64,000 bases of DNA from the IMG/VR virus record IMGVR_UViG_3300027754_000069, positions 1-64,000 of that record. The stretch is one strand, 5' to 3'. This document shows, one piece after another, positions 1 to 40,817 of this stretch. The translations under genes were made by a program, and so were the position numbers. How positions within the stretch are numbered: position 1 is the stretch's first letter; every line of letters begins with the position of its first letter. The notes beneath the pieces were generated by a model, which was not told where the DNA came from, made no database searches, and worked only from the letters and a program-made list of their open reading frames with translations. This DNA is from a virus.

Positions 1-82
1 CTAACCAACGAACTGAGCCAGCAAAGCTGGCAACTATTGTGGCAGTGGCAACAGCCAAGCCAGCCCATTCGTTGGTAGACAT
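1..82 (-). CDS. Small membrane protein, N-terminal 27 codons only (runs off window start)
   Basis: The start codon is at 80-82 and the gene runs leftwards off the window. The visible residues begin MSTNEWAGLAVATATIVASF and are identical to the N-terminus of the complete 67-aa protein at 40,426-40,629. The start overlaps the stop of the upstream holin-like gene by one base (TAATG), implying translational coupling. If genome A is circular, the missing C-terminal half is the sequence at 40,426-40,547. The hydrophobic stretch at residues 7-22 suggests one membrane helix. A role in lysis is inferred from position only. Confidence 0.75.
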   Translation of the reverse strand, partial: MSTNEWAGLAVATATIVASFAGSVRWL

Positions 83-88
83 TATTCT
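1..88. repeat. 88-bp direct repeat, copy 1 (genome junction)
   Basis: The first 88 bases of the window are identical to 40,548-40,635; the first mismatch is A at 89 against G at 40,636. The repeat covers the start of a small membrane-protein gene and its overlap with the holin-like gene. Because this copy begins at base 1, the true left end of the identity cannot be seen. It fixes an offset of 40,547 between the two genomes, which I take as the length of genome A. Confidence 0.95.
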
Positions 89-270
89 ACTCCGCGACCA
101 AAGTCTGTAGATGACTGGTCAAGCCACTTAAGTACTGGACCAAGGAAGCCTGTTAGGGCTGCCATTCCTAGTGTCTTAAGGTCCGTCTCACCAACAAGGT
201 ATAAAGCGACAGCAGCTGATGCTGCTGCGCGGAACCAAGATAGTGCTGCTGCTTGAAACTTTGCGTTCAT
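82..270 (-). CDS. Holin-like small membrane protein (62 aa)
   Basis: A 62-residue protein with an amphipathic Ala-rich N-terminus and two short hydrophobic stretches (about residues 15-27 and 34-48), ending in a charged tail. Its genome B counterpart at 40,629-40,817 has the same length and is about 85% identical. Next to it, reading across the circle closure, are another small membrane protein and an M15 endolysin, which fits a holin. No family motif is diagnostic, so the function is inferred from size, membrane character and neighbourhood. Confidence 0.6.
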   Translation of the reverse strand: MNAKFQAAALSWFRAAASAAVALYLVGETDLKTLGMAALTGFLGPVLKWLDQSSTDFGRGVE

Positions 271-283
271 TTATTTCTCCTTA

Positions 284-517
284 TTATTCTGTTGTTGTTT
301 CTTCTGGTGCAATAAATACATCTGCTGCAGAGTCATAGGTATAACCTGGACGAGCAAACACTCCACGGATACGACCAGTAAAGGATGTCTGAATCCAGTT
401 ACCACCTTCACCCCAGTACTTAGTTAGGTATTCAGTTGGGTCTGTTTCAAATTCATCTGGTACAGCAACTACAATATCTACTACATTATCTTCTTTTACT
501 TTTGCAAAATATGCCAT
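284..517 (-). CDS. Small virion-associated protein, MA(Y/H)(F/W)AKV family (77 aa)
   Basis: The protein opens MAYFAKVKEDNVVDIVVAVP, a start shared with a class of short phage proteins encoded next to fibre genes. The B counterpart (40,872-41,219) opens MAHWAKVEDGVV and is 115 aa, so A's version is shorter at its C-terminus, ending in an Ile/Ala/Pro/Glu/Thr-rich tail. It lies between the fibre genes and the holin-like gene. The function is unknown; a fibre accessory or chaperone role is a guess from position. Confidence 0.65.
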   Translation of the reverse strand: MAYFAKVKEDNVVDIVVAVPDEFETDPTEYLTKYWGEGGNWIQTSFTGRIRGVFARPGYTYDSAADVFIAPEETTTE

Positions 518-519
518 TT

Positions 520-2235: not shown

Positions 2236-2537
2236 TATACTATCTCCACTCCGCTAATATGGAAGTTAACAGTTGTTGCGTTTGCCAAACCAGTAATTGT
2301 TTGAGTTGCGGCTAGCACTTGTTTTAAGTCAATAAATGTTGTTGCATTTGCAGGTACTGCACCACCCGATACTAAAGCAACTCCATTAAGGTTAATAGTA
2401 AATGTTGCATCATTGATTGATGTATTTGCTACTGCAATGTTTGTGACAACCGCAGTACTTCCTGCAGGTGTTGTATAGAGGGTTGTACTTGATGTTGCTG
2501 CTGCTGTACGAGACAGCACCTTTGATATAACAGCCAT
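2235..2537 (-). CDS. Small beta-rich virion protein (100 aa)
   Basis: A 100-aa protein rich in Thr, Ala, Val and Asn with alternating hydrophobic residues, suggesting a compact beta-sandwich. A strong ribosome-binding context (ACCGAAAGGA on the minus strand, about 2,550) precedes its start. It lies between the Ala/Ser/Thr-rich fibre gene and the 571-aa tail gene. Genome B has an unrelated 186-aa Mtd-N-like protein here, so this gene is part of the exchanged receptor-binding block. Its function is unknown. Confidence 0.6.
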   Translation of the reverse strand: MAVISKVLSRTAAATSSTTLYTTPAGSTAVVTNIAVANTSINDATFTINLNGVALVSGGAVPANATTFIDLKQVLAATQTITGLANATTVNFHISGVEIV

Positions 2538-2557
2538 TAGTTACTGTTTCCTTTCGG

Positions 2558-4327
2558 TTAGAGGTATGCACCCATGATGATTTGTTGTTGTATTTCTTCT
2601 ATCTGTACTGTTGTCGGTCCACCAGCCACAGTTGACCATAGGATTCCAGAGCCAGTTGATTGCAAATACTGACCATTGGTACCAGATGATGCTGCTGCAG
2701 TTAGTGTTCCAGTTAATGTTAAGTTAGAAATTGTAGGACTTGTTCCAAATACTAGCGAACCTGAACCAGTCTCGTCTGAAATAACTCCTGCTAATTCTGC
2801 AGAAGTAGTAGCAGCAAGTTGCGATAATTTATCTGTAGTAACTACTAGAGTCTTAGATGTAGGAATAGTTGTTGAGTTAATGGTTAAGCCAGCAATATTG
2901 GTATAAGTAGTACCAGAGGCAATTGTTGTGCTACCAAGAGTCGGTGCCGAATAAATGCTAGTTGTAGCAATCTGTACCCAAGTAGAACCTGACCACACAT
3001 ACATATTGTTAAGTGTAGAATTCCAATAGATAGCACCAACAAGAAGTGTGTTGCCATCATTGTCTACTGTAGGAGTAGTTGCCTTGCTACCAAGATAGCG
3101 GTCATCAAAATCATCGTATGTTGTTGCAGCAGAAGAAGCACTCGTTAAAGCACTTGATGCCGATGTAGCAGCAGACGATGCGCTAGTAGCTGCAGCAGAG
3201 GCAGATGATGCCGATGCGGAAGCCGATGCGGAGGCGCTTGTTGCGCTTGTTGCAGCTGCAGTTGCGCTTGTACCAGCAGATGTTGCACTGGTAGCAGCAG
3301 CGGTAGCGCTTGCAGAAGCGTTTGTAGCACTGGTTGCAGCTGCTGCTGCACTTGCAGCAGCGCTGGTTGCACTGGTTGCTGCCTGTGATGCAGAAGTTGT
3401 AGCAGTTGCTGCTGAGTTGGATGCAGTAGTTGCTGACCCTGCAGCTGCCGATGCTGATGCTGCTGCGTTGGATGCAGATGTTCCTGCACTGGTTGCACTG
3501 GTTGCAGCGCTAGATGCTGAAGTGGCTGCTGCTGTTTGAGAAGTCAATGCCGATGTTGCAGAAGTTGCAGCAGCCGTCTGTGATGTTAACGCTGAGCTAG
3601 CACTGGTTGCTGCTGCGGTTTGGCTAGCAAGTGCAGAAGATGCACTGGTTGCTGCTGCAGATGCAGAAGCAGATGCACTTGTGGCACTTGTTGCTGCAGC
3701 GGTAGCCGATGTTGCAGCTGATGCTGCAGAAGTAGATGCTGCAGTAGCAGAACCAAGAATGTTGTCTACATAGTTTTTAGGAGTAGCAGACGAGTCAACC
3801 ATGCCAGCAGATGACAATCCAGTAATAGTTGCGCTGGTAATTGTACCGCCAGTAATTGTTGCTGATGATGTGAAGGCACCAGTTAATGTTCCACCAGCAT
3901 GTGCTGCTGTTGTAATAGTACCACCAGTAATTGTCGGTGAAGTAAGCGTCTTGCTAGTAAGTGTTTGTGCTCCGCCAGTACCAACAACATCTCCAGTTAC
4001 GTTGTGTGCTGTGCTTGCCACCTCGTGTGCGCGAGACTCAGTAAAGTCTCTAGCGGACACACCATGTTCAATGATTGCACCAATGTTGTGAGCCTTTGCT
4101 GTGGTTCCGTCTTGACCACGAAGAATGGTGTAAGCAGTACCAACTAAAGTAGTGACACTAACAATTTCTTCGTTAGCCGTATCCTTTTCAAGAATAAGCG
4201 TAAATGGATATTGTGATGGTAGACCAGAAGCGGTAGCAATCTGAAGGCTAGTTGAAGCCGAATCGATAGCAACAGCTACCGTTGTCTTTGCAGCGGTTGA
4301 GCTATAATAACGTGATGGTGATGGCAT
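2558..4327 (-). CDS. Tail fibre with long Ala/Ser/Thr repeat region (589 aa)
   Basis: Residues 1-110 form a conserved N-terminal domain (YPFTLILEKDTANEE, then GVSARDFTESR) that is nearly the same in the B homologue (43,742-45,361) and probably attaches the fibre to the particle. About residues 190-400 are low-complexity repeats of the AATSATSA type, seen in trimeric phage fibres as extended stalks. The C-terminal 180 residues are a globular tip. The repeats make the DNA at about 3,120-3,760 repetitive and generate spurious open frames on the other strand. Confidence 0.8.
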   Translation of the reverse strand: MPSPSRYYSSTAAKTTVAVAIDSASTSLQIATASGLPSQYPFTLILEKDTANEEIVSVTTLVGTAYTILRGQDGTTAKAHNIGAIIEHGVSARDFTESRAHEVASTAHNVTGDVVGTGGAQTLTSKTLTSPTITGGTITTAAHAGGTLTGAFTSSATITGGTITSATITGLSSAGMVDSSATPKNYVDNILGSATAASTSAASAATSATAAATSATSASASASAAATSASSALASQTAAATSASSALTSQTAAATSATSALTSQTAAATSASSAATSATSAGTSASNAAASASAAAGSATTASNSAATATTSASQAATSATSAAASAAAAATSATNASASATAAATSATSAGTSATAAATSATSASASASASASSASAAATSASSAATSASSALTSASSAATTYDDFDDRYLGSKATTPTVDNDGNTLLVGAIYWNSTLNNMYVWSGSTWVQIATTSIYSAPTLGSTTIASGTTYTNIAGLTINSTTIPTSKTLVVTTDKLSQLAATTSAELAGVISDETGSGSLVFGTSPTISNLTLTGTLTAAASSGTNGQYLQSTGSGILWSTVAGGPTTVQIEEIQQQIIMGAYL

Positions 4328-4330
4328 TTG

Positions 4331-6215: not shown

Positions 6216-6217
6216 GA

Positions 6218-6370
6218 TTACATACCCTTCTTCTTCTTAAGGGCTGGCTTCTTGACGGCTGGCTTCATTTTAACCTTGCCATATTCCATCATCATTTCTT
6301 TTTTGCCTTCAGACTTCTCATGCTTTTTCATTGCAGTCTTTGACTTGTACTTCTCATTCTTCATTGACAT
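6218..6370 (-). CDS. Small Lys/Met-rich protein (50 aa)
   Basis: The frame starts MSMKNEKYKSKTAMKKHEKS and ends in a run of Lys with Ala-Val-Lys-Lys-Pro. The B counterpart (47,199-47,393, 64 aa) shares the start (MSAKNEKYTSMKAMKKHE) and the KKPAxKKKK end, with a longer Met/Gly-rich middle. Conservation of both ends in two phages supports a real gene. It overlaps the upstream acidic gene by 17 bases. The function is unknown. Confidence 0.65.
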   Translation of the reverse strand: MSMKNEKYKSKTAMKKHEKSEGKKEMMMEYGKVKMKPAVKKPALKKKKGM

Positions 6371-6563
6371 CGTCTAACCCTTCATCTAGAAAATCTAATC
6401 CTTCTAATTCCAAATCGGGAAGCTGGCGCATTAACAATTCCCATGCTTCACCTTCACTAAACCCTGCTTCTTTGTACTCCGTGTAAAGCTCGTGAGCTTG
6501 AACAGCATGTAATTTAAGCGGTGTTAAGAAAGTTATATCTGGTTTTTGTTTCTTCTTTGTCAT
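6354..6563 (-). CDS. Small acidic protein downstream of capsid gene (69 aa)
   Basis: A 69-aa protein with a conserved core (LTPLKLHAVQAHELYTEYKE, then AGFSEGEAWELLMRQLPD) and a strongly acidic C-terminus (many Asp/Glu). The B homologue (47,377-47,589) keeps the core and the acidic tail. It is the first gene after the capsid gene and its hairpin. The helical core plus acidic tail could suit an assembly or chaperone role, but no function is known to me. Confidence 0.7.
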   Translation of the reverse strand: MTKKKQKPDITFLTPLKLHAVQAHELYTEYKEAGFSEGEAWELLMRQLPDLELEGLDFLDEGLDDVNEE

Positions 6564-6578
6564 ATCTCCCCTAAGTAG

Positions 6579-6602: not shown

Positions 6603-6611
6603 CCGTCAAAG

Positions 6612-8217: not shown

Positions 8218-10176
8218 TTAAACGTCTGGGTTGTTTAGACGTCTTGTGAGACTTGCTCGGTCTATAGCACTGCGGGTTGAGAACTTTGCACGTTCCTTAG
8301 AAGCAAGCTTCTTGGTTTTAAGTGCAACTTCTGTTCCGCCTTTAAGCGATAACTGCTGGCGAGTAAGGTCTTCTTCGCCAGACTTCTCATTATATAGACC
8401 CATTAAACGCGCATAGTCTTGTTGATTACGAGCTGTTGTTTGGAATGCTGCTTCAGCTTCTCCTGCTTTACCAGCAGTAGTAATCTCTTCAGCAAAGCCC
8501 TTGGTTGCTTTCATTCCTGCGCGACCTGCTGCTCCACCAACTTCAGAAGCCGTGTACATCTTTTGTGCTTCTGTCGTTGAGTAAACAAATCGTTTGTCAA
8601 TAGCTCTAAATGCTTTATCTTTATCAAGAAGATAGGCAACCATATCTGCGTCAGTAAGACCGTAGTATTCTTTCAATGCCTTCTTGGCTTCTGGGTCAGC
8701 AGTTTGCAAAACATTCTTTGCAATGTTGACACGGTCTTTTAACTCATCTGCGCTAACAGAGTTAGCGATAAGATTAGTAAAGTCATTAAGCTCGTTATAG
8801 AAATCTGTTGGCAACCCAGCTGATTCCATGTATTGCTTGAAAGTTTTTTCTGTTTCAATATACTCTCGTGGAGTTAGAACTCTATCTCCTGGTAATCCCT
8901 TGCCAGATGCCATACGGTCACGTATAGTTTTGTTTGCAGCAAACCGTGTGTTGTATGCATCGCTTGTATAGATTGCGTTAATAACTTGGTCTTCGGTTGG
9001 CATAATGTTATCTTCATATACCTTGTCAATAGCTCCAAGCATAGAATCAATTAAGTCTTTACCAAGACCAAGATTCTGAAACATCTGCATTACAGAGTCA
9101 CGAGCACCAAAGTCTTTATATGAATCAATTACTTTTCCAGCCGAACCATCGGACATAACCTCAACGGTTTCAACAATGCCACCAGCTTTACGTTGGGTAC
9201 GGACTCCAACAACTTTTGGCTTCTTTGCATCCTCAGCAGCTTTAGCTGCAGCATCTGTTTGTAGTTTTACTAATTCTGCAATCTGGTCGGCAAGTGCTTT
9301 TACTTGTGCAGTTACTGCTGCAGTTGCTGCTGCTGCTGCAGCATCAGATGCATTTGCTGGTTCAACAATTTCTATGCCGTCTTTGTAAGATTTGCCATTG
9401 TAGTTTCCAGTATAAGTTTTTCCATTCTTGGTAAAAACACCATCAATCGTTTCGTATTTATCGGCAACTGTTTTAGCTTTACCGTCTACGTATTCTTGAC
9501 CATCGTAAGTACCAGTATACGGCTTACCATTCTTGTTAAGGACGCCGTTAACAGTTTCATATTTGTCTCCGCCTGGAATTTCTACAACTTTACCGTCTTT
9601 GTATTCTTTGCCTTGATAGGTTCCAGTATATGGCTCACCGTTCTTCATGAAAACGTCACCAACGGTTTCGTACTTGTCACCGCTTGGAGCTTCTACAACT
9701 TTACCGTCTTTGTAATTCTTACCATCCCATTCGCCAGTATATGGGTTGTTATTAATGTCATAAAGAATTCCGTCTTTTGTGACAAATCCATCTACACCAG
9801 TAGCTACTGTTGATGTAGTGGTATTATCTGTTGCTTGATATGCATCATAAATTTCTTGCTCGGCATCATTGAGCTGAAGACCCTTAGCTATTTTTGCTAA
9901 AATAGCAGAAAGGTCTGATGCTGTATATGTAGGGGTAGGTGTTGGAGTAGGTGTTGGAGTAGGTGTTGGAGTAGGTGTTGGAGTAGGTGTAACGGTAGAC
10001 GTGCCTATTTCATTTGCTGCATCAAACTCCGCATCATCAAGCATTTTGCCTTGTCCTGTTTTAGCAGCTGCAACTTGATTTCCTACTGTTACAAATGTAT
10101 TTAATGCATTGACTAAATCAGGGATACTTCCCCCGTCATCAGTCATCATTAAATTTGGATTTAAATAATTTGGCAT
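8218..10176 (-). CDS. Internal virion protein with TP linker and four YTG repeats (652 aa)
   Basis: The N-terminus (about 1-60) is followed by an uninterrupted Thr-Pro dipeptide run (about 62-83), then four repeats of about 33 aa around the motif Y-T-G-x-(Y/W)-x-G-(K/Q)-x-Y-x-D-G (about 140-275), an Ala-rich coiled region, and a conserved C-terminal 320 aa. The C-terminal part aligns with B's 538-aa protein (49,248-50,864), but B has a LysM domain and no YTG repeats in its N-terminal half. I infer a virion protein whose surface module has been exchanged; the repeats resemble MORN-type strands. Confidence 0.65.
   Translation of the reverse strand: MPNYLNPNLMMTDDGGSIPDLVNALNTFVTVGNQVAAAKTGQGKMLDDAEFDAANEIGTSTVTPTPTPTPTPTPTPTPTPTPTYTASDLSAILAKIAKGLQLNDAEQEIYDAYQATDNTTTSTVATGVDGFVTKDGILYDINNNPYTGEWDGKNYKDGKVVEAPSGDKYETVGDVFMKNGEPYTGTYQGKEYKDGKVVEIPGGDKYETVNGVLNKNGKPYTGTYDGQEYVDGKAKTVADKYETIDGVFTKNGKTYTGNYNGKSYKDGIEIVEPANASDAAAAAATAAVTAQVKALADQIAELVKLQTDAAAKAAEDAKKPKVVGVRTQRKAGGIVETVEVMSDGSAGKVIDSYKDFGARDSVMQMFQNLGLGKDLIDSMLGAIDKVYEDNIMPTEDQVINAIYTSDAYNTRFAANKTIRDRMASGKGLPGDRVLTPREYIETEKTFKQYMESAGLPTDFYNELNDFTNLIANSVSADELKDRVNIAKNVLQTADPEAKKALKEYYGLTDADMVAYLLDKDKAFRAIDKRFVYSTTEAQKMYTASEVGGAAGRAGMKATKGFAEEITTAGKAGEAEAAFQTTARNQQDYARLMGLYNEKSGEEDLTRQQLSLKGGTEVALKTKKLASKERAKFSTRSAIDRASLTRRLNNPDV
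9935..9990. repeat. 12-bp tandem repeat encoding the Thr-Pro linker
   Basis: The unit GGTGTTGGAGTA is repeated about five times with almost no variation. On the minus strand it encodes Thr-Pro dipeptides. B has a different 12-bp array (about 50,395-50,465, encoding Thr-Ser-Thr-Ala) at the same place in the homologous gene. Both arrays should vary in copy number by slippage. Confidence 0.85.
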
Positions 10177-10185
10177 CTTTTACCC

Positions 10186-11550
10186 CTACTGGATGAATCC
10201 AAAGTCTTGAAGAATGCGACTTGCAATTCTTGTCTTCTCTTCTTTTGCGTTCTGGGTTAAGTCCCACTTAGAACTTCGACGCGCCATCTTCTTTGCATCA
10301 AACAGATTAACTGGAGATACATTTCCTTTTTCATCTGTATTGTTTATAGTGCGCTGTACATATTCATCGTTAAGGTCTATTGAATCCGCATCTGTTTCCC
10401 ATACATCAGCTATAGCTTGTAACCATGGGTCTGCTGCTTGACGCAGCGTTTGACCTTGGTCAATTAGGTTAGCCAATCCAGGAGCAAATGACTTTGCTCG
10501 TGTTTGTAGTTGGTCATCAACTTGCTGTGGGTTTAATTTTCCACCGACAAGACCTTTCATGCTGGTTTCAAACCAGTTAGTAAATCCAGCGTTAGACATA
10601 GTCTGTGGATATCCGTAGTCCCATGCTTGCTTGTAAAGACTCTGTGCAAGAGTCTCAAGGTTTCCGCTAAGCTTTGTATATACGACCCTATCGCCAATCT
10701 TGTCGTTCTTAGTAAAGTTAATAGCACCAGACATAAGCGTATTAATATAGTCAGCATCAAAGCGAATAACTTTGCCATCTTGAATAATAGATTGTTTCAT
10801 CATTTGTTCTGCGTATTTAACAGCGTCTTGTGCTGTAATGTTTAATCCATTGGCAGCAAACTTCTTAACAATCTCGCTTGCATTTAGTTGTAAATCTGCA
10901 GCAAACTGTCCAGGATTTGTTTCTCTAGCCCAGTCATACTGACGTTGACTGTCAGTTTGACCTTGCCACCAAGATGTTCCTTTAATAATTTGTTCTTGTA
11001 GAAAAGGGTCCGTAATCATTGGTTCACCGTTTATACCAAGAATCTTATTAAGAGCTTCTTGTAAACTTTTGTCTGCTCCGATAACAGCAGCAGCAATACT
11101 AAATCGTGACTGCAGTTGCGCCAAAGAAAAAGTATCTTTTGTTTGTGATGAAGTCGTGCTCAGTGTTGCTGGGTCTACTGTAATTGTTGACCCTGGTACA
11201 ACTGCTGGAGGTTCAACAGGTTCAACAGGTACAACAGGTGCAACAGGAATTGCGCTAGGAACAAACCCACTCTTGTTATTAAGTGCAGTAACCTTGGCTT
11301 CATTCTGAAGTTTTTGTTTTTCTAGTGCAGATAAACGAGCAACCTCAGCAGCTGCAGCTACAGATGAAGTACTTGATGAAGTACTTTTTTCTGTACCAAT
11401 AGGAATCATAATCTTTTGATTTACACGAATAAGATTAGGATTAGTAATACTTGGGTTAGCTGCAAGAATCTTTGCTACTGTGGTCTTATTAGCTTTAGCA
11501 AGTGCACTAAGTGTGTCGCCTTTTTTAACTGTAATAGTTTTGTTTGCCAT
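10186..11550 (-). CDS. LysM-containing virion protein (454 aa)
   Basis: Residues 4-50 form a LysM domain (ITVKKGDTLSALAKANKTTV, ending QKIMIP), which binds N-acetylglucosamine polymers such as peptidoglycan. A Pro/Val-rich spacer follows (about 100-130) and then a helical region of about 300 aa conserved with B's 408-aa protein (50,869-52,095), including NPGQ(F/Y)AADLQLNAS and DAKKMARRS. I infer an internal or tail-tip virion protein that contacts the cell wall during entry. It overlaps the next gene by one base. Confidence 0.7.
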   Translation of the reverse strand: MANKTITVKKGDTLSALAKANKTTVAKILAANPSITNPNLIRVNQKIMIPIGTEKSTSSSTSSVAAAAEVARLSALEKQKLQNEAKVTALNNKSGFVPSAIPVAPVVPVEPVEPPAVVPGSTITVDPATLSTTSSQTKDTFSLAQLQSRFSIAAAVIGADKSLQEALNKILGINGEPMITDPFLQEQIIKGTSWWQGQTDSQRQYDWARETNPGQFAADLQLNASEIVKKFAANGLNITAQDAVKYAEQMMKQSIIQDGKVIRFDADYINTLMSGAINFTKNDKIGDRVVYTKLSGNLETLAQSLYKQAWDYGYPQTMSNAGFTNWFETSMKGLVGGKLNPQQVDDQLQTRAKSFAPGLANLIDQGQTLRQAADPWLQAIADVWETDADSIDLNDEYVQRTINNTDEKGNVSPVNLFDAKKMARRSSKWDLTQNAKEEKTRIASRILQDFGFIQ

Positions 11551-12365
11551 TACTGAACGACCTTTCCAATTGCTGTTCTGTCAGGACCAATCAAACCTTC
11601 TATAATCTTTAACATGTTTTTTGCTGCAAAAGATTCTGCGTAGTCTGGCAAACTTCGGGCAAAGTTCTGTGCAAATATTGTTGGGTCAAATCCTGTTGAT
11701 TGAGTAGCGTTTGTGACCGTATTGCTTACGCCAGTAGCACCAGACCCTGTAACTGTGGTCTTGCTTGTGTTCTCATAGACAGATGGCTCAAGGGCTGCCT
11801 TAGCATTAACAGCTTTTAAGTAAGCAGCAGCCTCAACAGATGAGGCTGTGCGACCAAGTTCTGATTCAATAGATTTGTTGACATCGGCACCAGCGCCTGA
11901 TGCGCTGTACTTTGTTGCTGTAGTAACCTTGCTTTTATTTGTTGCTGGTGCCTTGGCAGCCGTTGTCTTGTCAGCATAATCTGCCATAGACATACCAGAA
12001 GATAGGTACAACGCTGGGTCACCTTTAGAACCAGACCCTGGTGCTTGTGTCCAAGACACAGCATCTGCCCAAACATCATTGTACTTTGACTTTGGGATAC
12101 CAGCTTTGGCAAGTAGCGCAATAAAGTTGTCGTAGTACTTTCGACTTGGACTTCCTTTTGCTGCCTTTGGTGCAGTAAATTTAAACCAGTCTTTTGCTTG
12201 TGTGGCGTCGACACCTGTCTTAAGACCAGGAAGAATAATCGGCGGAATGTCTAATGTATTTTCAGTCTTTCCAGCGTTTTCTTTATTCCATTTAGCAAGA
12301 GCTGCTGTGTACTGTTTAATACCAGTTGCTCCCTTTGGGTAATCGCTTCTTACTGGTTTAGCCAT
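11550..12365 (-). CDS. Virion-associated protein (271 aa)
   Basis: A 271-aa protein rich in Ala, Lys, Thr and Ser. Its C-terminal third (STGFDPTIFAQNFARSLPDY, then AESFAAKNML) is conserved in B's protein at 52,095-52,904 (TTGFDPTMFARNFAMSRPDY). It lies between the LysM protein and the 1,647-aa protein, in an arrangement typical of podovirus internal-protein cassettes. It overlaps the upstream giant gene by 8 bases. The N-terminal region differs from B, where a VPGTAAYxAGSKTRP module is found. No enzymatic motif was seen. Confidence 0.6.
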   Translation of the reverse strand: MAKPVRSDYPKGATGIKQYTAALAKWNKENAGKTENTLDIPPIILPGLKTGVDATQAKDWFKFTAPKAAKGSPSRKYYDNFIALLAKAGIPKSKYNDVWADAVSWTQAPGSGSKGDPALYLSSGMSMADYADKTTAAKAPATNKSKVTTATKYSASGAGADVNKSIESELGRTASSVEAAAYLKAVNAKAALEPSVYENTSKTTVTGSGATGVSNTVTNATQSTGFDPTIFAQNFARSLPDYAESFAAKNMLKIIEGLIGPDRTAIGKVVQ

Positions 12366-15300
12366 TTGTCACCGTGAATTCTGTATCTAGTTGAGGCATG
12401 TTGTTTAACCATCTATATGCAAAAGCAGCAAATTCTTCTGATGCTGTTTGCAAAAAGTCATAATGGAACTGAGCAAACTGTTGCTTTAGTTGTTTCTTTC
12501 TGGCATCAGTATTGTTCTGTGCTTCGTAAGTTTTGTTAAAGATTTTAGCTTCTTGCAGCCAGTAAGTAATCTCTTCCCACTTAGGGCTTCCTTTAGATAT
12601 GGCGTAACTTCTCCAGTTAGTGTCATCAGTAATCTTTTGAATCGCTGGAATTGTTACATCCCAATACTCTTCATTAGTATTCTTTCTGTCAACAGCCCAG
12701 CTTGGAAAGTCTTCGATTACGGAATCAACCATCTTCTGGTACTCACGTTTGATACCACTTCGTTCATACGTGGCATCATATGTAGAACCAATCCCATACT
12801 CAGCCATCTTGGCATCACGCCATTCTTGAGCTTTTTGGAATTCAAACCAACCGCGTCGAGCTTCGACGCTATCGGCTACTTCTTTCTTGGTCTTCTTCTG
12901 TGTAATTGGAGTGTCATACCCAGGGAAGCCAAGCTTCTTAAAGATTGCAGCAACCTCAGTTGAATACTCAGAACTACTTGATAAATCACCATAACCAGAT
13001 GAAAGCATTGCTGCGTACTTTGTATTTGAACGACCAAGTTTAGTAATTAACTCTGGGTTCTTACGAAGTACGGCTAGGTCTTCCATGGTTGTTGCAAGAC
13101 CTGAGATGTTCTTTTGGTTAGAACCAATCAACGCAATAGCGTCAACTCCCCAGTCTTCAGCAAACATTTTATCTGCAAGTTTGTAATCTCCGCCTGCTGC
13201 ATCAACCAAATCTGCATACCATGCAGTAGCTGCACGTGTGACAGGGTCAAAGGATGTAGCAATTGGCATAGAGAATTGGACTACTGCTCTAATGAAAGAC
13301 ATTACTCCAGCAGATTTAGCTGCTGTTGCCATTGTAGGTGGTTCACCTATACGACCGTTTCTATCCCATTGTGAATATGCAACTTTAAACTGAGCATATG
13401 TTTCATCTAGGAATCGGTCATCTCTGAATAATCCAGAAGCAGCTAACGCTGACTTCATATATCCAGGAATAATCGTATTGGCTGCAGTTTCTACAAAACC
13501 GCCACCTTCTTGTGGGTATCCACCGTAAAGTACGCTTGACTCATAGACATCATCGCCTAACGCATCACGTAATCCTTGAGCAACCTGCTCGCCATAAATC
13601 TTCCATGGACCAATTCCAATACCGTTCTTAACGATTTCAGAAACTGTGATACCGCCGAACCAAGATATGGATGGGTCAGCAACCATGAACTCTAGTTGCT
13701 TTGGGTTCCAACGAACTCCACCACCGCGTGAATCTGTGTATGGCTTTAGTGCATCTTGAGCCCATCCTGGCAACTTGTTGCCAAACGGAATTGGATACTT
13801 TATAGAAACCTGTGTTCCCTTTGGAACATCTTGAATACTCTTGTAAGTATTTCCTTCTTGGTCTTCGTATGCTTCAAAGTTATCAAACGCTTCTTGGATA
13901 CTGTTGTACCAATAAGCATTCATTGGGTTGCGAGCCAATAGGCGAAGCGCTACCGCTTGTGAGTTAAAGAATGCAAGAGGGAATGACATCGCATAACGTG
14001 CAACATACATTCCGTTAGTAAGTCTACGTGATGAGTATAGTGTTTCTTCAACACGTGTCAAAGCTTTACGGTATGCAGCTTGACGAATCTCATTGTTGAC
14101 AACCGCATCAGACAAATCAATGCCAGCACGTTCTGCTGCATCTACCATTGTCTTCATCTCTTGACGAGTGTAGGTGAGAAACAGCGGATTACGCACAAGT
14201 TTGTTTTCTGACGCAGATAGAATTCTCCATGCTGCATCGGTCATACCTTGCACCTTAGCCAAGCCACGTTCCATATTATTAAGGTCGTTTAGCTTAAGAC
14301 TTGGTCCATCAATTGTCTCTGGTAGGTCTGGCTTACCATAAAGAATTGAATCTACTTCATCTACTGACACATCACGAGCAAGGATTGTTGAACGCAATCC
14401 TTCATCTGGATACATCTGATTGAGTTTTTCTCTAGTTGTATCAATCCAAGTTGCAAATCCATCGCGGTCAACTTCTTTGCCAAAGCGACTTTGCATACGC
14501 AATCTGTACTCTTTGCCTGCTGGGCTATAAAGCCATTTAAGAATACTTCCAGTAGATTCGTTACGCAGCATCATGCCAAGAGGCAAATCAATTTCGTTGC
14601 GAATCTGACGGTTTGCAATATGAGTCAAAGCATTCATGTACTCTGCTCGGTCTGCTCGGTTAATCTTTACAAAGCGGGTACCGTCTGCGCGAAGGCGACG
14701 AGAGATTTGGCTTTGCATCGCCGTTGCAAGAAAGTTTTGTGCCGAATCAATCTCGGTCATGTAGGCACCGACACCGCGTACGTTAGGGTCTGCAAGACCC
14801 TGAATTGTATATTCTTTACCGCTTGAACTTACAATAACGTCTTCTTCTTGACCAATTTTCTTTTTACCAGTTTTAAGTTCTTGCTTACGAGTTTCGTAAT
14901 CAACCCAGTCTGTGCGGTTCTTGTCGATAAGTTTTGCATAACCATTGACTACGTCTGCTCTTAACGAAAGCTCATCACTTGCATCACCTAGCGCAACACG
15001 TGCTTCATATAAAACATCTTCTGCTGCATACAATGCAGCCTGTGCTTTAGCAGCGCTATCGCCTTTAGCTTTATTGGCACGAGCTAATGCTTTTTGTTGA
15101 GCAACCTCTGCCTTATTAAAGATTCTTGTTGCTTCATCAACGTTTGATTGAGCCTTTTCCCACAGTGCAACTTTTGGTTCCATCTCAGCGCGGTAACGTT
15201 CAATTTCAAACTTTGCTGCTTTGGCACGTTTGCGAGCGTTCGCTTGTGGACTACCAGGCTTAAACCGCTTTAAAGATTCAGCAAGTAAACTTGAGTTGTA

Positions 15301-21630: not shown

Positions 21631-23520
21631 TCACAATCTCGCTATTCGCTGCGCTGCAGCTAAGTCATCTAAGTTGACAATGTACCTAGATTCAATCTCA
21701 TGACGAGGTGTGAATTCGTTTTTGAGGAAGTTGGGTACATTCGCTGAAGTAAGTAAAACATCACGGGCTACGATTTCACAGAACCATAACGCCATTACGG
21801 CGTCCATCTTTAATCGCTTGCCCTGTACTCCTGGTTGCCAGGTTACAAGTTGTTCTATTAACTTTTTAATATGTTCATTTCTTGAAGAATCAGGCAACTC
21901 AATTATGTTGTCACCTGCATGCTTCAAGTTGTTATTGGTACCGTCTCGCTTAACTACGGTTCCAAATAACGGAGCCAGAGAGGCTACGCCAAACTCTGGG
22001 TCTTGCTTATTATTACCAGTATAATGTGGTCGGTAATTAATACCACGTGTAGCGAGGAAGTTTCTAATTTCCTCGTCTTGTGTTAAGAAAAGCTGAAAAG
22101 CATTTGATTCCACAATGACAGTATGCGGTTTGTAAGCATCTGTCCATTCTTTTATCAAAGAGCGAATTGCTGCAGGTGTTGGGGCTGTCATGACGTGAAC
22201 GTCCATGACGTAGCGTTTGTGTGTTCTGCGGTCAACTGCGTAAGCTACAGCTGCGGTGTCGCCAGACATCGCTGGGTCGATACCAATAACGCGATAGAAG
22301 TTCTGTGCATTATCAGGATGACCCGCTGCGCCTGCAATCAAAGCACCCGATTTTCTCATTCCATTGACTGCGCCTCTGACGCATGTCGGGTCGAAGATTG
22401 CATTCTCCGCGATATCGAGATTTTGGTAAACCAAGGACCACTTGGAAGGACCAGCCTCGTTGCGAACCGCCGTTAAGCGTTCGCCTGTCCATCGGTCAAA
22501 GTTCCCATTTTCGTCAGGCACATCAGTGTCTGTGAGGGGTTGCTCTGATTTTGCCCAAAGAGTTTTCCAATCCTTTGGATTGTCAGCGTACTGAAGTACT
22601 GCTGGCATGGACAAATATGACCACGGAAGGACACCGTCCGTGTAATGCGTTGAGTTGCGAAGTTCTTTATATAAGTCAACTGCTGATACGCGAGTACCAA
22701 CAACAAGAAGCTGACCACCACCTGGTGGAAGGCGGGAGGCAACTTCTTGTCTAATCCATTCTTGTTGCTTAGCCCATTCATTGGCGTTAGACAACGTCAC
22801 AACGTCGTCTAGCACAATTAAATCTGCACGTGCTCCATAGACCTGACCGCCCATACCGATAGCTTCAACGGTTGGGTCTTTAGCGTCATTGTCGCGGATA
22901 TCTCCGCCAAGGTAAATCTTGTTAGCCGACCACTGGTCGGCGGTTGCTTTGTAACCATCTGCTGGTCCAAAAGCTGCCTGTAGGTCAGCGTACCGAGGAT
23001 GTGTCAGTCGCTGCTTAATAGCGTAAAGAAACTTCTTAGCCTGCTCCTGGGTTTTCGAAATAACGATAACCGAGATATTAGGGTTCTTGACGATACGGTA
23101 GGTCACGTAGTTAATCGTAATGGTCATAGTCTTGGCGTGGTTTGGTGGTATGTTTACCAACAAACGAGCTAGACCAGCCGAGCCTTTTTCGTAGGTCATA
23201 GCTGGGTCAATCCAGCGGGGCTCTCGACCTTCTAGCATATCGACCACGTTAAGCATGTGGTCCCAGACTTTGGCACCAAGATATTTCTCGGAGAACTCGG
23301 CGAAATCTGAAAGATTCGTCCGAGCATCTTCTGCCAAATCGGCTGTTCTAAACCGAGCATTATCTATAAAGGCAGCGAAGCCTTGAGCTTCGCGCCGTTG
23401 GGTGTCATACCAAGAACGACTTCTACCAATAACTTTTAGAGAATCGGCGATGGTGCGCCCTTGGCGTACCAAGTCGATAAGTTCTTTACGTGCCTCTTCT
23501 GGGGTTAAGTTTCTTTCCAA
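21631..23520 (-). CDS. terL: Terminase large subunit with N-terminal helix-turn-helix (629 aa)
   Basis: This is the DNA-packaging motor. Residues about 5-45 look like a helix-turn-helix recognition segment (GRTIADSLKVIGRSRSWYDT), suggesting a fused small-subunit-like domain; no separate small terminase gene was found. The ATPase part has a Walker A-like IPPNHAKTMT (about 124-133) and Walker B LIVLDD (234-239). The RNase H-like nuclease begins RVIGIDPAMSGDTAA, with Asp415 as the likely first metal ligand. It is the first gene of the late operon and is followed four bases later by the portal start. Confidence 0.9.
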   Translation of the reverse strand: MERNLTPEEARKELIDLVRQGRTIADSLKVIGRSRSWYDTQRREAQGFAAFIDNARFRTADLAEDARTNLSDFAEFSEKYLGAKVWDHMLNVVDMLEGREPRWIDPAMTYEKGSAGLARLLVNIPPNHAKTMTITINYVTYRIVKNPNISVIVISKTQEQAKKFLYAIKQRLTHPRYADLQAAFGPADGYKATADQWSANKIYLGGDIRDNDAKDPTVEAIGMGGQVYGARADLIVLDDVVTLSNANEWAKQQEWIRQEVASRLPPGGGQLLVVGTRVSAVDLYKELRNSTHYTDGVLPWSYLSMPAVLQYADNPKDWKTLWAKSEQPLTDTDVPDENGNFDRWTGERLTAVRNEAGPSKWSLVYQNLDIAENAIFDPTCVRGAVNGMRKSGALIAGAAGHPDNAQNFYRVIGIDPAMSGDTAAVAYAVDRRTHKRYVMDVHVMTAPTPAAIRSLIKEWTDAYKPHTVIVESNAFQLFLTQDEEIRNFLATRGINYRPHYTGNNKQDPEFGVASLAPLFGTVVKRDGTNNNLKHAGDNIIELPDSSRNEHIKKLIEQLVTWQPGVQGKRLKMDAVMALWFCEIVARDVLLTSANVPNFLKNEFTPRHEIESRYIVNLDDLAAAQRIARL

Positions 23521-33646: not shown

Positions 33647-33649
33647 TTG

Positions 33650-34027: not shown

Positions 34028-34065
34028 AGTTACCTCTTTTCATTTTGTGAGTAGCCGTAACTTGC

Positions 34066-34419
34066 TCACTGATGTCCATTGTAACCTGCCTGTTTAAGCA
34101 GATTCACCCAGAGTTCCGCAGGCATTACTGCATACGACTCTGAGATATTAGAAGTGCCACGCTTCTTGATTAACACAACGCCTGTCTCTGCATCGGCATG
34201 TGTCATCTCATTCTCCAGTTCCCGAAGATACTGAGGAATTCTAATTGCTTTCTCATTCTTACATTCTATAACCACACCATTGATACCGTCAATATCTCCG
34301 ACATCATCGTGTCTGCCTGCACCATATGCGCGTTCAGCGCATGGATAGCCCATGGTTACTAACCACTTAACTACATCACGTTCGTACTGTGAGCCTTTAC
34401 GTTTAGCTGCTGATGTCAT
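34066..34419 (-). CDS. Holliday junction resolvase, archaeal Hjc/PD-(D/E)XK type (117 aa)
   Basis: A 117-aa nuclease with Glu13 in a basic N-terminal helix (KGSQYERDVVKWL), GDIDGINGVVIECKNE carrying the PD-(D/E)XK-type acidic residues (Asp42/Asp44, Glu52) and Lys54, and QYLRELENEMTHADA. This is the Hjc-like fold used by phages to resolve branched replication DNA. It overlaps the WhiB gene by 4 bases. Confidence 0.8.
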   Translation of the reverse strand: MTSAAKRKGSQYERDVVKWLVTMGYPCAERAYGAGRHDDVGDIDGINGVVIECKNEKAIRIPQYLRELENEMTHADAETGVVLIKKRGTSNISESYAVMPAELWVNLLKQAGYNGHQ

Positions 34420-34685
34420 ACGTAATCTCCTGGTATCAATGAGTCTAGTTTTATATTTAACTTACGACGTATCTTCATTCTTTCACGTGGTGTCAATCCA
34501 CCCCATAGACCATACCCTTCATGGAGTACTGCCCAGTCAAGACATTCTTTCTTTACTTGACAACCAGAACATATTTTTTTACCAAAGGAATACATTGATG
34601 TATCACCTTCGTTCTCAGAATCTGGGTAAAAAAAATCGCTACCAACTTCTCTGCACTGACCACGTGATAGGTCTGGCATACGCAT
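34416..34685 (-). CDS. WhiB-family transcription regulator (89 aa)
   Basis: The four Cys of the 4Fe-4S cluster are present (Cys11, Cys39, Cys42, Cys48), followed by the diagnostic GLWGG (59-63) and an Arg/Lys-rich C-terminal segment (TPRERMKIRRKL). WhiB proteins occur only in Actinobacteria and their phages, so this gene gives the host phylum. Phage WhiB proteins are thought to bind host sigma factor or act against host WhiB regulators. Co-transcription with a sigma-like gene fits transcription takeover. Confidence 0.9.
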   Translation of the reverse strand: MRMPDLSRGQCREVGSDFFYPDSENEGDTSMYSFGKKICSGCQVKKECLDWAVLHEGYGLWGGLTPRERMKIRRKLNIKLDSLIPGDYV

Positions 34686-34695
34686 CTGTAACTCC

Positions 34696-34857
34696 TTAAG
34701 GTCGGCGGTTTAATCTATAAAGATTTTCCCAGTACTTTAACGCAACTTCATCCGTAACTGCAAGATATTGTAACCTTTTTCTTTTTTGCACACCAAGGTA
34801 GGCAAGTACATGCCACTTAATCCAAGCACCACGTATATAGATGGTTGGCTTAATCAT
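34696..34857 (-). CDS. Hypothetical basic protein (53 aa)
   Basis: A 53-codon frame filling the gap between WhiB and the 130-aa gene: it starts MIKPTIYIRGAWIKWHVLAY, contains a Lys/Arg-rich stretch (VQKRKRLQYLAV) and ends NRRP. It overlaps the upstream gene by 8 bases. Its length, coupling and the absence of another explanation for the gap support it, but there is no homologue in the window. Confidence 0.5.
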   Translation of the reverse strand: MIKPTIYIRGAWIKWHVLAYLGVQKRKRLQYLAVTDEVALKYWENLYRLNRRP

Positions 34858-35242
34858 TCTTTAATTCTTTCATCACATCTAATAGGTTCTCTACCGTAAT
34901 CAGATAGCCCTTGCTTCTATTCGGTGGTATCTCACAAGTAATCTCTCGACCAAACTTTTTAATTGCATACAACACATGACCAGTTGGAACCATGAGCACA
35001 CCACGTTCAAGTACGAACGCCCAGTATGCAGCTTTAGTTACCATCACACCTGACGGTTCCCAATTCTGGGAACGTCGATACCAGCATTCAACTTCTATAT
35101 ATAGGTTATTGGTTGACCACCATTTGCGGTCACGTTTAACTTCTACTGTGCCACCTTCGGTCAGTAGTTGATTTACTAGTGACTCGCCTTCTTGACCAAA
35201 TCTAAAATCTAAATCAAATGACGATAGATTTTCTACTGCCAT
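34850..35242 (-). CDS. PD-(D/E)XK nuclease-like protein (130 aa)
   Basis: A 130-aa protein with a nuclease-like core: FGQEGESLVNQLLTEGG, then VEVKRDRKWWSTNNLYIEVE, where Glu-x-Lys and a following Glu are spaced as in PD-(D/E)XK folds. A C-terminal helix (VENLLDVMKELKND) follows. It lies between the ATPase and the small 53-aa gene. It is probably a DNA-processing enzyme of the replication operon; a degenerate non-catalytic version cannot be excluded. Confidence 0.55.
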   Translation of the reverse strand: MAVENLSSFDLDFRFGQEGESLVNQLLTEGGTVEVKRDRKWWSTNNLYIEVECWYRRSQNWEPSGVMVTKAAYWAFVLERGVLMVPTGHVLYAIKKFGREITCEIPPNRSKGYLITVENLLDVMKELKND

Positions 35243-36066
35243 TGCGATAACGTTCTTGCTCTATGTAAATCAGATGGAGAGTTGTAAAGAACCATCTTGC
35301 TTGCTTCCGCCGATAAAGTTACATAGCTTTCTGCAGTTGGGTCTGCCTTGCCATGTCTGTTCTTTACAACAGCAACTCGATAATTAGAGGAAGCACTATC
35401 CAGAGCCACCGAAAGGACCAACTCTGGTAGTGCTGCCACCTTACCCATCAATGCTTTACGTGGTGCTGGGTAGTTCGGCTTAGACATCTTCTCATTCTCG
35501 GAAACGTGGTGCAGGACGATGAATGCCGATTCATACTCACGAGCCATGTAGTGAAACGCTGACATGGCATCGCGTAGTGCAGTCCACTCGTTATCACTTG
35601 CGGATGCTACGTTCATTAAGTTGTCTACATATACAGCAGTAGGTGCCGAACCATGCAATTCAATCCACGCTTCTATCTCCTCTTCAATGTCTTGAAGAGA
35701 AGGTGCTGGGTCGAACGCGAATCGTACATGGTCGGCACCTTCCGCTAGCGCATCCTCAAGGAGAACGCTTGCTTCGGTATCCATCAATCTTTCTACATCA
35801 GCAACATCTTTATTCATAAGTATTGCACCAGCGCGAGTAGCGATGGTACGTGAATCAGAGTCAGCTGATATATATAACGACGGAACCTTAGATGTAATTG
35901 CGTACCATAATGCAAGTAGTGTCTTACCTCCGCCTGGTTGACCAGCGACCAAATGCAATTGCGCTTGGCGAAAGACAACTTGACTGGCTGTGAGTTGAGG
36001 CAGGATTTCTGGTAGTTGATGACCAACTGGTGACTCGACACCCACTACTTGCAAGAGGCTACGCAC
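35233..36066 (-). CDS. DnaB/RecA-type ATPase, replicative helicase-like (277 aa)
   Basis: Walker A at 41-49 (AGQPGGGKT), an acidic turn at SADSDSRT, Walker B near 144-148 (AVYVD), a Gln/His-type sensor region (FIVLHHVSENEK) and a C-terminal beta segment (YRVAVVKNRHG). This is the RecA-like core of DnaB/KaiC-type helicases, without the usual N-terminal primase-binding domain. With the separate primase proteins downstream it should form the phage replisome. It overlaps the 158-aa gene by one base. Confidence 0.8.
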   Translation of the reverse strand: MRSLLQVVGVESPVGHQLPEILPQLTASQVVFRQAQLHLVAGQPGGGKTLLALWYAITSKVPSLYISADSDSRTIATRAGAILMNKDVADVERLMDTEASVLLEDALAEGADHVRFAFDPAPSLQDIEEEIEAWIELHGSAPTAVYVDNLMNVASASDNEWTALRDAMSAFHYMAREYESAFIVLHHVSENEKMSKPNYPAPRKALMGKVAALPELVLSVALDSASSNYRVAVVKNRHGKADPTAESYVTLSAEASKMVLYNSPSDLHRARTLSQWQ

Positions 36067-36542: not shown

Positions 36543-37211
36543 CTACTTTCTCTCCTTTTCTTTCCCTGTTGTTGGTAGTTGTAGTGGGAAATCTTTTGAG
36601 CCCCATGCGGGGCACTTCGCCATGAACGAACACATCTTACAGTTTTCACCAACGAATGTTGGGAAGTAACCTTGCAATACTGAGTGGTTCATAGATGTAA
36701 ACGCATGTTCATAGTATTCAATACTGAGGTGGGTTAAGTCAATCAATTCATCAAGCTCGCCTTTGCGAGTCATAAAAAATGCGCCCCACTTGGGGCGAAT
36801 ACCAAAAATCTTTTCAACACCACTGGCATACAATCCATTTTGGATTACACCGAACGGTGTCCTGGAACCAGTCTTATAGTCAACGATAACCAAGTCTTCC
36901 CCTACTTGGTATATCGCATCAATAATAAATCGAACAGGTGTACCCCCGAAATGCACATCTGCTGACCATTCGATTCCAGGACGACCATCAGGCATGGTAG
37001 CGATTTGCCAACCAGATTGCAACATCCATTGATGGTATGCCTCAACCTGCTTTAGCCCATCGCTTTGCCAGAAGGAGAGGTCCTCACCGTCAGGACGAGC
37101 AGCGGTCTTACGACCAGCTACCTTCCATTCTGATGGGGGTAACCCCGACTTCTCCTCGACATCTCTTACTTCGGCATTGAATATCTCAAGCCATTTCTCA
37201 GTTAAACTCAT
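36543..37211 (-). CDS. RecB/Cas4-like nuclease, C-terminal part (222 aa)
   Basis: This carries the catalytic residues Asp98 (RFIIDAIYQV) and the motif VIVDYKTG (Asp111, Lys113), followed by QNGLYASG and a C-terminal Cys set C-x2-C-x5-C (Cys191, 194, 200). These match the RecB/AddB/Cas4 class, in which one further Cys and the motif I His lie N-terminally. Those are missing here and are found in the separate 67-aa gene (37,409-37,612). The two parts probably assemble into one Fe-S exonuclease. Confidence 0.75.
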   Translation of the reverse strand: MSLTEKWLEIFNAEVRDVEEKSGLPPSEWKVAGRKTAARPDGEDLSFWQSDGLKQVEAYHQWMLQSGWQIATMPDGRPGIEWSADVHFGGTPVRFIIDAIYQVGEDLVIVDYKTGSRTPFGVIQNGLYASGVEKIFGIRPKWGAFFMTRKGELDELIDLTHLSIEYYEHAFTSMNHSVLQGYFPTFVGENCKMCSFMAKCPAWGSKDFPLQLPTTGKEKERK

Positions 37212-37780: not shown

Positions 37781-37999
37781 CTACCATTCTGGTGGAGCAA
37801 CTGCGAGCGCATCCAGCGTGGCTATATTGATGCACCCGACTGCTGGGATGGAAAGCCGATGCTGCAAACCTCTTAGCAATTCAGCAAGGGGCGCATCTAG
37901 CACATCATCGCCAGCAACATTAAGAGCTAGCCTGACTTGATTGACTAACTCATTTCGTTCGCCTAGTGATACCAGTGGTATTAACTTGTTATCTTCCAC
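37781..37999 (-). CDS. Peptidoglycan-binding-domain-like protein (72 aa)
   Basis: The sequence LVNQVRLALNVAGDDVLDAP, then LRGLQHRLSIPAVGCINIAT, then LDAL resembles the three-helix PG_binding_1 fold (pattern of V-x2-L-Q, G-x-I-x3-T-x2-A-L). It is a free-standing domain, the last gene of the late operon. It could bind cell wall for the endolysin or be a virion accessory. The match is by eye and the domain is short. Confidence 0.55.
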   Translation of the reverse strand: MEDNKLIPLVSLGERNELVNQVRLALNVAGDDVLDAPLAELLRGLQHRLSIPAVGCINIATLDALAVAPPEW

Positions 38000-39912: not shown

Positions 39913-39922
39913 GAGTTATCTC

Positions 39923-40429
39923 CTACTTCTTGGATGGACAGTGCTTACAGCAGTTAGATGTATCTTCTGCTGGGTATGCTTTCTTAGTCGGTACAGCAGC
40001 AATTGCTGCTTTAACCTGATTAATTATCTTAGGTTGATTCATCCACCAGAACCACGGAGAAGTATCGGTACCCATAGTGGACTCAATAGAAACATGTAGA
40101 TGCTTATTATGAGGATTACTCCCAGTGTACCGTCTGTTTCCCAGCTTGGATTTTTCTTTAGACCAAATCTTTCCCTGAAAGATAAGGTACTTAACTCTTT
40201 TATCTTCTTTAAGTTTCTCAAATATTTCCTTACAGTCAATACCATTATCTGGGTCATGGGTAAGGTCTGCTGCTAGCCCAGTATTGTGGTCCGAGTTCGG
40301 ACTTTGACTGACATGTGCTGCAGATGGTAGAAGACCATCGCTTGCTTTCTTCCGCTTTGGTTGCAGTGCCGTCGCTTGGCGCAGCACAGCAAGTGCAGCA
40401 GGTGTGGCTTTCTTGACTACAGTTGTCAT
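39923..40429 (-). CDS. Endolysin: M15-type peptidoglycan peptidase (168 aa)
   Basis: Zinc peptidase features of the M15/VanY type: the SDHNTGLAADLTHD motif (His48 and Asp55 as zinc ligands) and NKHLHVSI (His110, His112). The enzyme would cut peptide cross-links in the host cell wall. An Ala/Lys/Pro-rich C-terminal tail with three Cys (NCCKHCPSKK) could be a zinc-binding or attachment segment. There is no signal peptide, so it needs a holin; the two holin-like genes lie next to it. Confidence 0.8.
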   Translation of the reverse strand: MTTVVKKATPAALAVLRQATALQPKRKKASDGLLPSAAHVSQSPNSDHNTGLAADLTHDPDNGIDCKEIFEKLKEDKRVKYLIFQGKIWSKEKSKLGNRRYTGSNPHNKHLHVSIESTMGTDTSPWFWWMNQPKIINQVKAAIAAVPTKKAYPAEDTSNCCKHCPSKK

Positions 40430-40629
40430 TCACGATTCTTTCCAGCTACTAGTTCATACAGGCTGTCAACACGAAGTTCTAATCTATCGAGTGAGTCACG
40501 CATCGAGCTGCCTGAATTTGGTTTCAATTCTGTGAGGTAGTGTTTTACTAACCAACGAACTGAGCCAGCAAAGCTGGCAACTATTGTGGCAGTGGCAACA
40601 GCCAAGCCAGCCCATTCGTTGGTAGACAT
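40426..40629 (-). CDS. Small membrane protein with coiled coil, holin-like (67 aa); spans the A/B join
   Basis: An N-terminal transmembrane helix (residues 7-22, LAVATATIVASF) followed by a coiled-coil tail (SMRDSLDRLELRVDSLYELV). This layout is typical of class II/III holins or Rz-like accessory proteins. It overlaps the endolysin by 4 bases. The N-terminal 27 codons lie in the 88-bp repeat and are the same as in the partial gene at 1-82; the rest belongs to genome A. The gene is intact, so if the join is natural it recombined within this gene. Confidence 0.65.
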   Translation of the reverse strand: MSTNEWAGLAVATATIVASFAGSVRWLVKHYLTELKPNSGSSMRDSLDRLELRVDSLYELVAGKNRE

Positions 40630-40635
40630 TATTCT
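40548..40635. repeat. 88-bp direct repeat, copy 2 (A/B junction)
   Basis: Identical to 1-88. To the left the sequence belongs to the GATC-free genome A; to the right B-type sequence with many GATC sites starts within 25 bases (first at 40,660). The repeat lies in the start of the small membrane protein and is a place where A and B are identical by homology, so an assembler or recombination could switch here. Confidence 0.9.
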
Positions 40636-40817
40636 GCTCCGCGTCCGAAGTCTGTTGAAGATCCGTCAAGCCACTTAAGAACTGGACCAAGGAACCCTGT
40701 TAGAGCTGCTGTTCCCAGAACCTTAAGGTCCGTCTGACCAGCAAGATAAAGTGCGACAGCAGCAGATGCTGCTGCACGGAACCAAGATAATGCTATTGCT
40801 TGAAACTTTGCGTTCAT
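40629..40817 (-). CDS. Holin-like small membrane protein, genome B copy (62 aa)
   Basis: The genome B counterpart of 82-270: same length, with differences such as Ala9 to Ile, Val27 to Ala and Gln52 to Gly. Two hydrophobic segments and a charged C-terminus. It contains the first GATC of the window (40,660-40,663), where A has GGTC. A terminator-like hairpin lies just upstream (40,838-40,860), so its expression may be partly insulated from the fibre genes. Confidence 0.6.
   Translation of the reverse strand: MNAKFQAIALSWFRAAASAAVALYLAGQTDLKVLGTAALTGFLGPVLKWLDGSSTDFGRGAE

Follow-up and report, generated by a model that had tools for sequence, protein, structure and literature searches.

A nuclease-like gene that accompanies the absence of GATC from phage genomes of freshwater and marine bacteria

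Introduction

Why should one phage genome contain no GATC at all when a close relative, joined to it in the same sequence record, carries the word freely? Phage genomes that have lost restriction sites are usually taken to bear the mark of host restriction. Rusinov et al. 2018 (PMC6286503) report that Type II palindromes are wholly or nearly eliminated in about one-tenth of viral genomes, so site avoidance as such is already known. Here we describe the missing words in this record, their inheritance among related phages, and a small gene whose presence tracks the absence of GATC.

Results

Two phage populations joined in one record

The IMG/VR record is 82,688 bp long, and its first 64 kb form the stretch analysed here (hereafter, the window). 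Two freshwater phages, A and B, are joined in it:

1-40,547: phage A, complete 40,547-bp genome; zero GATC, GGCC and CCGG.
40,548-64,000 in the window, continuing to 82,688 of the record: phage B (23.5 kb in the window); GATC present, zero GGCC and CCGG.
1-88: repeat at the joint, 88 bp, exact copy at 40,548-40,635.
40,437-40,535: repeat at the joint, 99 bp, exact copy at the record end, 82,590-82,688.

The DNA of A and B is mostly 65-79% alike and their gene content is nearly equal. Because A and a near twin of B exist as separate records, the most likely reading of the fusion is an assembly chimera of two relatives, joined where about 200 bp are nearly identical, a stretch that includes the 88- and 99-bp exact repeats. 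The standalone copy of A (L002, IMGVR_UViG_3300010885_007256) has 40,624 bp including a 77-bp end repeat, which gives 40,547 bp; the near twin of B (L042) is a 39,061-bp record in which the helicase and a 173-aa gene are 100% identical to those of B. A and B are thus two coexisting phage populations. The first-pass annotation had already split the window into two genomes, correctly, but at 40,659/40,660; the length of L002 and the repeats place the boundary at 40,547/40,548. Short internal repeats were seen in a tail-region gene and a tail-fibre gene of A (9,377-9,990 and 3,158-3,754), with counterparts in B.

GATC was removed from A by synonymous change

A string count found no GATC in 1-40,659, against 154 expected from base composition and 146 from a Markov model, so the earlier claim that this stretch is free of the word was, if anything, understated. 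The first GATC lies at 40,660. From there the word is frequent, as had been noted, with 77 occurrences up to 64,000 (Markov expectation, 100) and 126 in the whole of B (40,548-82,688).

When synonymous codons were shuffled in 28 genes of A, 92.7 +/- 7.2 GATC were expected and the lowest of 100 shuffles had 74, compared with the 0 observed; the B homologues of these genes have 89 against 109 expected. At 55 GATC sites in B genes where the amino acids are unchanged, the most common counterpart in A is GACC (28 sites), that is, Asp GAT changed to GAC, which bears out the synonymous removal proposed in the first-pass annotation. An origin in composition, codon usage or mutation bias, of either phage or host, therefore has practically no probability: the shuffles expect 93 +/- 7 sites in A, host genomes are normal or high in GATC, B has its 126 at equal GC content, and nothing was found in favour of such a bias. 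The absence goes far past what composition and codon usage predict, and the data support a loss of GATC from A that is extreme, specific and achieved through synonymous change.

Depletion is not shared equally by all palindromes, since the remaining 13 four-base palindromes all occur in A. The first-pass annotation overlooked that GGCC and CCGG are absent from the entire 82.7-kb record, in A and B alike.

Absent words are inherited by clade and can be lost rapidly

Relatives were collected with one gene of A as query, which was also used for the tree:

21,631-23,520, minus strand: terminase large subunit of A.

We fetched 80 contigs with related terminases and took 25 of the larger records whole. 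In these phages, a four-base palindrome is either present or missing altogether, and its absence follows clades. On the terminase tree, GATC is absent at 35 of 85 tips, a pattern that requires 2 changes versus 27 when the labels are shuffled, and the absences of GGCC, CCGG, AGCT, CATG and CGCG are likewise clade-wise.

The sets of absent words differ between close lineages: CGCG is gone in one B-side clade, and AGCT and ACGT in a third lineage. GTAC is fully lost in several small groups (L374, L425, L353-L362) that share 85-88% DNA identity with relatives bearing GTAC, which indicates that a word can be purged quickly and in recent times. The losses extend to degenerate sites, among them CYCGRG (0/119 in A-type phages) and CGWCG (0/104 in lineage C). 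Lineage C, a freshwater group comprising L253, L256, L271, L274 and related contigs, lacks AGCT, GATC, GGCC, CCGG, CGWCG, RTCGAY, GRCGYC and GTGCAC, and ACGT is nearly gone from it. Residual sites are clustered in L016 (four GGCC within 1.2 kb) and scattered in L031, L046 and L407, so neither import nor drift alone suffices to explain them.

Two genes or gene sets were considered as partners of particular words and rejected. The lysin/holin genes, 70-85% identical between lineages, had appeared to be linked to GGCC; they are a shared lysis cassette, and one carrier (L075) has normal GGCC. The 173-aa gene of B has no homologue in the phage collection, and no word was found to be missing from B-type phages only.

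A 130-aa gene marks GATC-free phages

A comparison of complete genomes grouped by GATC status singled out one gene of A, which lies in the following neighbourhood:

34,850-35,242, minus strand: 130-aa PD-(D/E)XK-like protein (phrog_13596), candidate GATC endonuclease; presence tracks GATC absence.
35,233-36,066, minus strand: DnaB-like helicase, adjoining the 130-aa gene; the B copy is 87% identical.
36,543-37,211, minus strand: RecB/Cas4-like PD-(D/E)XK exonuclease (phrog_1870), in the same gene block.
76,693-77,214 of the record (beyond the window): 173-aa PD-(D/E)XK-like protein of B, unrelated to that of A, after the B helicase at the locus of the 130-aa gene of A.

The 130-aa gene is present in 7 of 7 complete GATC-free members examined and in 0 of 4 with GATC, which have the unrelated 173-aa gene at the same place. 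Across 80 freshwater contigs carrying the gene, only 5 GATC were counted against 3,083 expected, with none in 76 of the 80; contigs within a lineage are non-independent. Among pieces of 10 kb or longer, 76 have the gene, and every one of them belongs to the GATC-absent class. Contigs that have the gene of A at the helicase locus contain 0-2 GATC, whereas those with the gene of B and a B-type helicase have normal GATC. One contig (L378) contains a shortened copy of 96 aa at 6,267-6,557 and a single GATC.

The gene also occurs in a distant lineage whose terminase is 45% and helicase 36-38% identical to those of A. There the 130-aa gene is 77-79% identical and lies at a different position, which points to horizontal transfer, and GATC is absent in both lineages. 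GATC can be absent without the gene. It was not found in the Planktophila phages E7 and F5, which are GATC-free nonetheless, and five A-like contigs that have the gene of B instead (L340, L354, L363, L364, L365) are also GATC-free. Some of the gene-negative loci are fragments, and the gene could lie outside them.

The product has no Pfam match and no PDB sequence match, and its family, phrog_13596, has no assigned function. E34 and K36 are invariant in 25 freshwater sequences and kept in the cross-family alignment, and E34-x-K36 plus E50 are conserved across homologues, in agreement with the conserved E-x-K catalytic motif of PD-(D/E)XK enzymes. An alignment-based AlphaFold2 model (pLDDT 76) replaced a poor single-sequence fold. 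Its best PDB match is I-Ssp6803I (2ost), with a Foldseek probability of 1.00 but a weak E of 0.04 and a TM of 0.37 over 59 residues. Motif and model together suggest a PD-(D/E)XK-like nuclease. In A, the gene is free-standing, beside the helicase and near the exonuclease. A search with the D12 (Dam-like) methyltransferase family found no member in 27 phage relatives, including A's own record L002.

Homologues in marine phages and a jumbo phage

The association was first found by looking within one data set; the distant homologues and the jumbo phage were checked later, on other phages. The 130-aa protein matches proteins in phages of SAR11, SAR116 and Roseobacter hosts at 28-45% identity, and the homologue in CRP-143 links the family further to the Xanthomonas jumbo phage XacN1. 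In the Autographiviridae pelagiphages that were read, the position of the homologue coincides with or adjoins the DNA polymerase and exonuclease genes, and these phages have an annotated endonuclease I as well.

Ten records with homologues at 28-51% identity (HTVC120P, HTVC011P, HTVC019P, HMO-2011, CRP-143, XacN1, C72C1, HTVC104P, Gjalp and Eistla) were read in part, and their 359,420 bases contain 0 GATC versus 1,217 expected. Every other four-base palindrome occurs in these records, none being missing from more than 4 of 11 stretches, and in the 90 kb of XacN1 that were read GATC is the sole missing palindrome. The co-occurrence of gene and GATC absence thus spans many unrelated phages, with at least seven independent lineages.

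Gene-positive loci in viral contigs akin to HTVC019P and CRP-143 number 81; 80 of them are GATC-free and the remaining one has 1 GATC, while all eight CRP-143 relatives without a detected gene contain GATC. Six marine loci with neither the gene nor GATC stop at the polymerase, where the gene would begin. The SAR11 phages permit a comparison on one host, HTCC1062, which HTVC010P has in common with HTVC011P, HTVC019P, Gjalp and Eistla: HTVC010P has 110 GATC against 88 expected, and the gene was not found in the 30 kb of it that were searched. HTVC008M, also a phage of HTCC1062, has 22 GATC versus 140 in the 45 of 147 kb that were read, a stretch in which the gene was not found, so other pressures on this word exist.

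Two side observations concern the same phages. In C72C1 (L572), which is GATC-free, the nuclease homologue lies near an annotated DNA methyltransferase (10,968-11,795 and 13,058-13,564). ACGT is nearly or fully absent from HTVC010P (L569; 1/88) and HTVC104P (L573; 0/63), and of the two the GATC-linked gene was found only in HTVC104P.

Host restriction systems match the missing words

Two genes of A bear on its host:

34,416-34,685, minus strand: WhiB-like protein with a Cys motif and GLWGG, a marker of actinobacterial hosts according to PMC10202952.
39,923-40,429, minus strand: M15/VanY-like lysin, identified by eye; 78% identical to the lysin of Planktophila phage E7.

WhiB-like proteins, which point to actinobacterial hosts, are encoded in both A and B, so the host of A is presumably actinobacterial; a genome scan with the terminase gave no host for A. 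Among the nearest relatives are the cultured phages LanE43AprE7 (E7) and LanE43AprF5 (F5) of Planktophila, a member of the Nanopelagicales (terminase 46% and lysin 78% identical; PMC10202952). Their genomes (L082 and L083; OX376640 and OX376641) have zero AGCT, CATG, CCGG, GATC and GGCC, each expected about 97-149 times. The host group was located with the acI 16S probe from PMC3699509.

Host genomes have no gaps of this kind and are not depleted in GATC: strain LanE-43 (G001) has 1,323 in 200 kb against 773 expected, or about one per 150 bp. In LanE-43, the host of E7 and F5 and the one cultured host in the group, no C5, D12 or N6/N4 methyltransferase was found, though its phages lack five palindromes. 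The hgcI bins of Lake Biwa showed neither a methylated motif nor a methyltransferase.

Across 296 Nanopelagicales genomes, a C5 methyltransferase match was found in 53 (46 above the family cut-off) and a D12 match in at most 11. With specificities assigned by family membership, a Sau3AI-like enzyme (GATC; PDB 4pxg, E=1e-50) lies beside a C5 methyltransferase in 4 of the 296 and a BglII-family enzyme (GATC core) does so in 5; the adjoining C5 methyltransferases are 77-83% identical to one another and of one type. NgoPII-like (GGCC) and HpaII-like (CCGG) enzymes adjoin C5 methyltransferases as well, so each of the three words missing from A has a plausible host enzyme. The first-pass annotation had advised a search of host genomes for GATC-specific (MboI/DpnII-like) genes; Sau3AI-like and BglII-family enzymes were found, and the DpnII family, with 0 of 296 genomes, was dropped as a candidate. 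The suggestion that B protects its DNA found no support in the D12 family search, which gave no Dam-like methyltransferase in the 27 relatives, L042 included.

For GGCC and CCGG, absent from A and B alike, host restriction of those specificities would be the best and simpler explanation. Besides GATC, the words lost by lineage are GGCC, CCGG, AGCT, CATG, ACGT, CGCG, GTAC and degenerate sites, for which no matching phage nuclease was found; a general exposure to host restriction is therefore needed in any case. One phage nuclease per missing palindrome was rejected as a general explanation, because there are too many sites, degenerate ones included.

Avoidance of GATC as a way to escape or tune Dam/MutH mismatch repair has a precedent in the GATC-free phage phiX174, for which it was suggested (PMC5014478). 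For A it is very improbable, given that Dam-like D12 methyltransferases are limited to at most 11 of the 296 genomes and that the MutH matches in Nanopelagicales are the Sau3AI-like enzymes beside C5 methyltransferases. Another reading is that the 130-aa protein does not cut at GATC and that its gene is tolerated or useful only in GATC-free genomes, for example if it targets methylated or hemimethylated GATC or binds GATC. This would draw on the same association between gene and GATC absence. It is improbable, since fold and motif point to a nuclease and hosts without GATC methylation would offer no modified target.

Discussion

What emptied A of GATC, and what keeps it empty? Host restriction, named as the cause in the first-pass annotation, finds support in the GATC systems of the likely host order and falls short as the whole story, because the GATC-free state follows a phage gene over at least seven lineages. 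The strict form, in which host restriction alone emptied the lineage of A and the 130-aa protein is an ordinary replication or recombination nuclease common in such phages, is a doubtful but serious alternative. It agrees with the matching Sau3AI-like, BglII-family, NgoPII-like and HpaII-like systems in Nanopelagicales, with the resemblance of all other purged words to Type II sites, and with E7 and F5, which are GATC-free without the gene. However, it fails to predict the gene each time in GATC-free phages of Nanopelagicales, SAR11, SAR116, Roseobacter and Xanthomonas. It also does not account for GATC being the sole missing palindrome in XacN1, for the lack of DpnII in 296 genomes, or for LanE-43 having no methyltransferase of the three families searched. 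The 130-aa gene predicts GATC absence better than host restriction systems do.

That one gene family marks GATC-free genomes in at least seven lineages, with hosts of different phyla, is most simply explained if its product acts on GATC. From this co-occurrence we infer DNA cutting, GATC specificity and the direction of cause. The 130-aa gene of A probably encodes a phage GATC endonuclease, which would be safe to carry because its own sites have been purged. More broadly, we lean towards viewing this widespread family of small nucleases as solitary GATC restriction enzymes without a partner methyltransferase, their carriers being immune through GATC-free genomes. As part of that joint claim, we likewise favour the idea that host or rival DNA would be attacked by sequence, with the absent word distinguishing self from non-self. 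GATC is plentiful in host genomes, so the enzyme would break the host chromosome and might also cut the DNA of competing phages, B among them; the DNA of A would be spared, as it contains no GATC. Site purging would then stand in for the methyltransferase of an ordinary restriction-modification system.

The history likely had two steps. Host GATC restriction would have emptied the genome of sites, and a GATC nuclease could then have been safely gained, locking the genome in the GATC-free state. Such an order leaves room for E7, F5 and the five A-like contigs, which are GATC-free but lack the gene.

If self-protection of this kind is true in some cases, an absent word predicts the specificity of an enzyme, and the specificities of uncharacterised phage nucleases could be found from genome sequence alone. 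A phage's own enzyme would also explain why hundreds of sites were purged and kept purged. The question concerns Nanopelagicales and SAR11, the most abundant bacteria of fresh and marine waters, and cultured carriers such as HTVC019P exist. We found no account in the open-access literature of a phage nuclease whose carrier is protected by the absence of its own site.

Several known systems offer comparisons. The Sau3AI, MboI and DpnII restriction-modification systems would have the GATC target in common with the phage protein, which differs from them in being 130 aa long, in having no Pfam or PDB sequence match, and in having no D12 partner in the relatives searched. Phage T4 breaks host DNA with EndoII and EndoIV, nucleases that prefer certain sequences or bases, and its own DNA is spared by hydroxymethylcytosine. 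The proposed attack on host DNA would be alike, whereas A would be protected by having no site. The target of I-Ssp6803I, a PD-(D/E)XK homing endonuclease, is long. This enzyme is the best fold match (PDB 2ost), and the phage gene is likewise mobile between lineages, but here a four-base site is implied. With E7 and F5 (PMC10202952), A has in common actinophage kinship, WhiB, a sigma factor, a glycosyltransferase and zero GATC, GGCC and CCGG; unlike A, these phages are devoid of AGCT and CATG too and have no copy of the 130-aa gene. Finally, Type II palindromes are wholly or almost wholly gone here, as in the cases covered by Rusinov et al. (PMC6286503). Unlike those cases, up to five four-base palindromes are lost together (E7 and F5), the set switches among close relatives, and the loss of GATC follows a phage gene and not host enzymes only.
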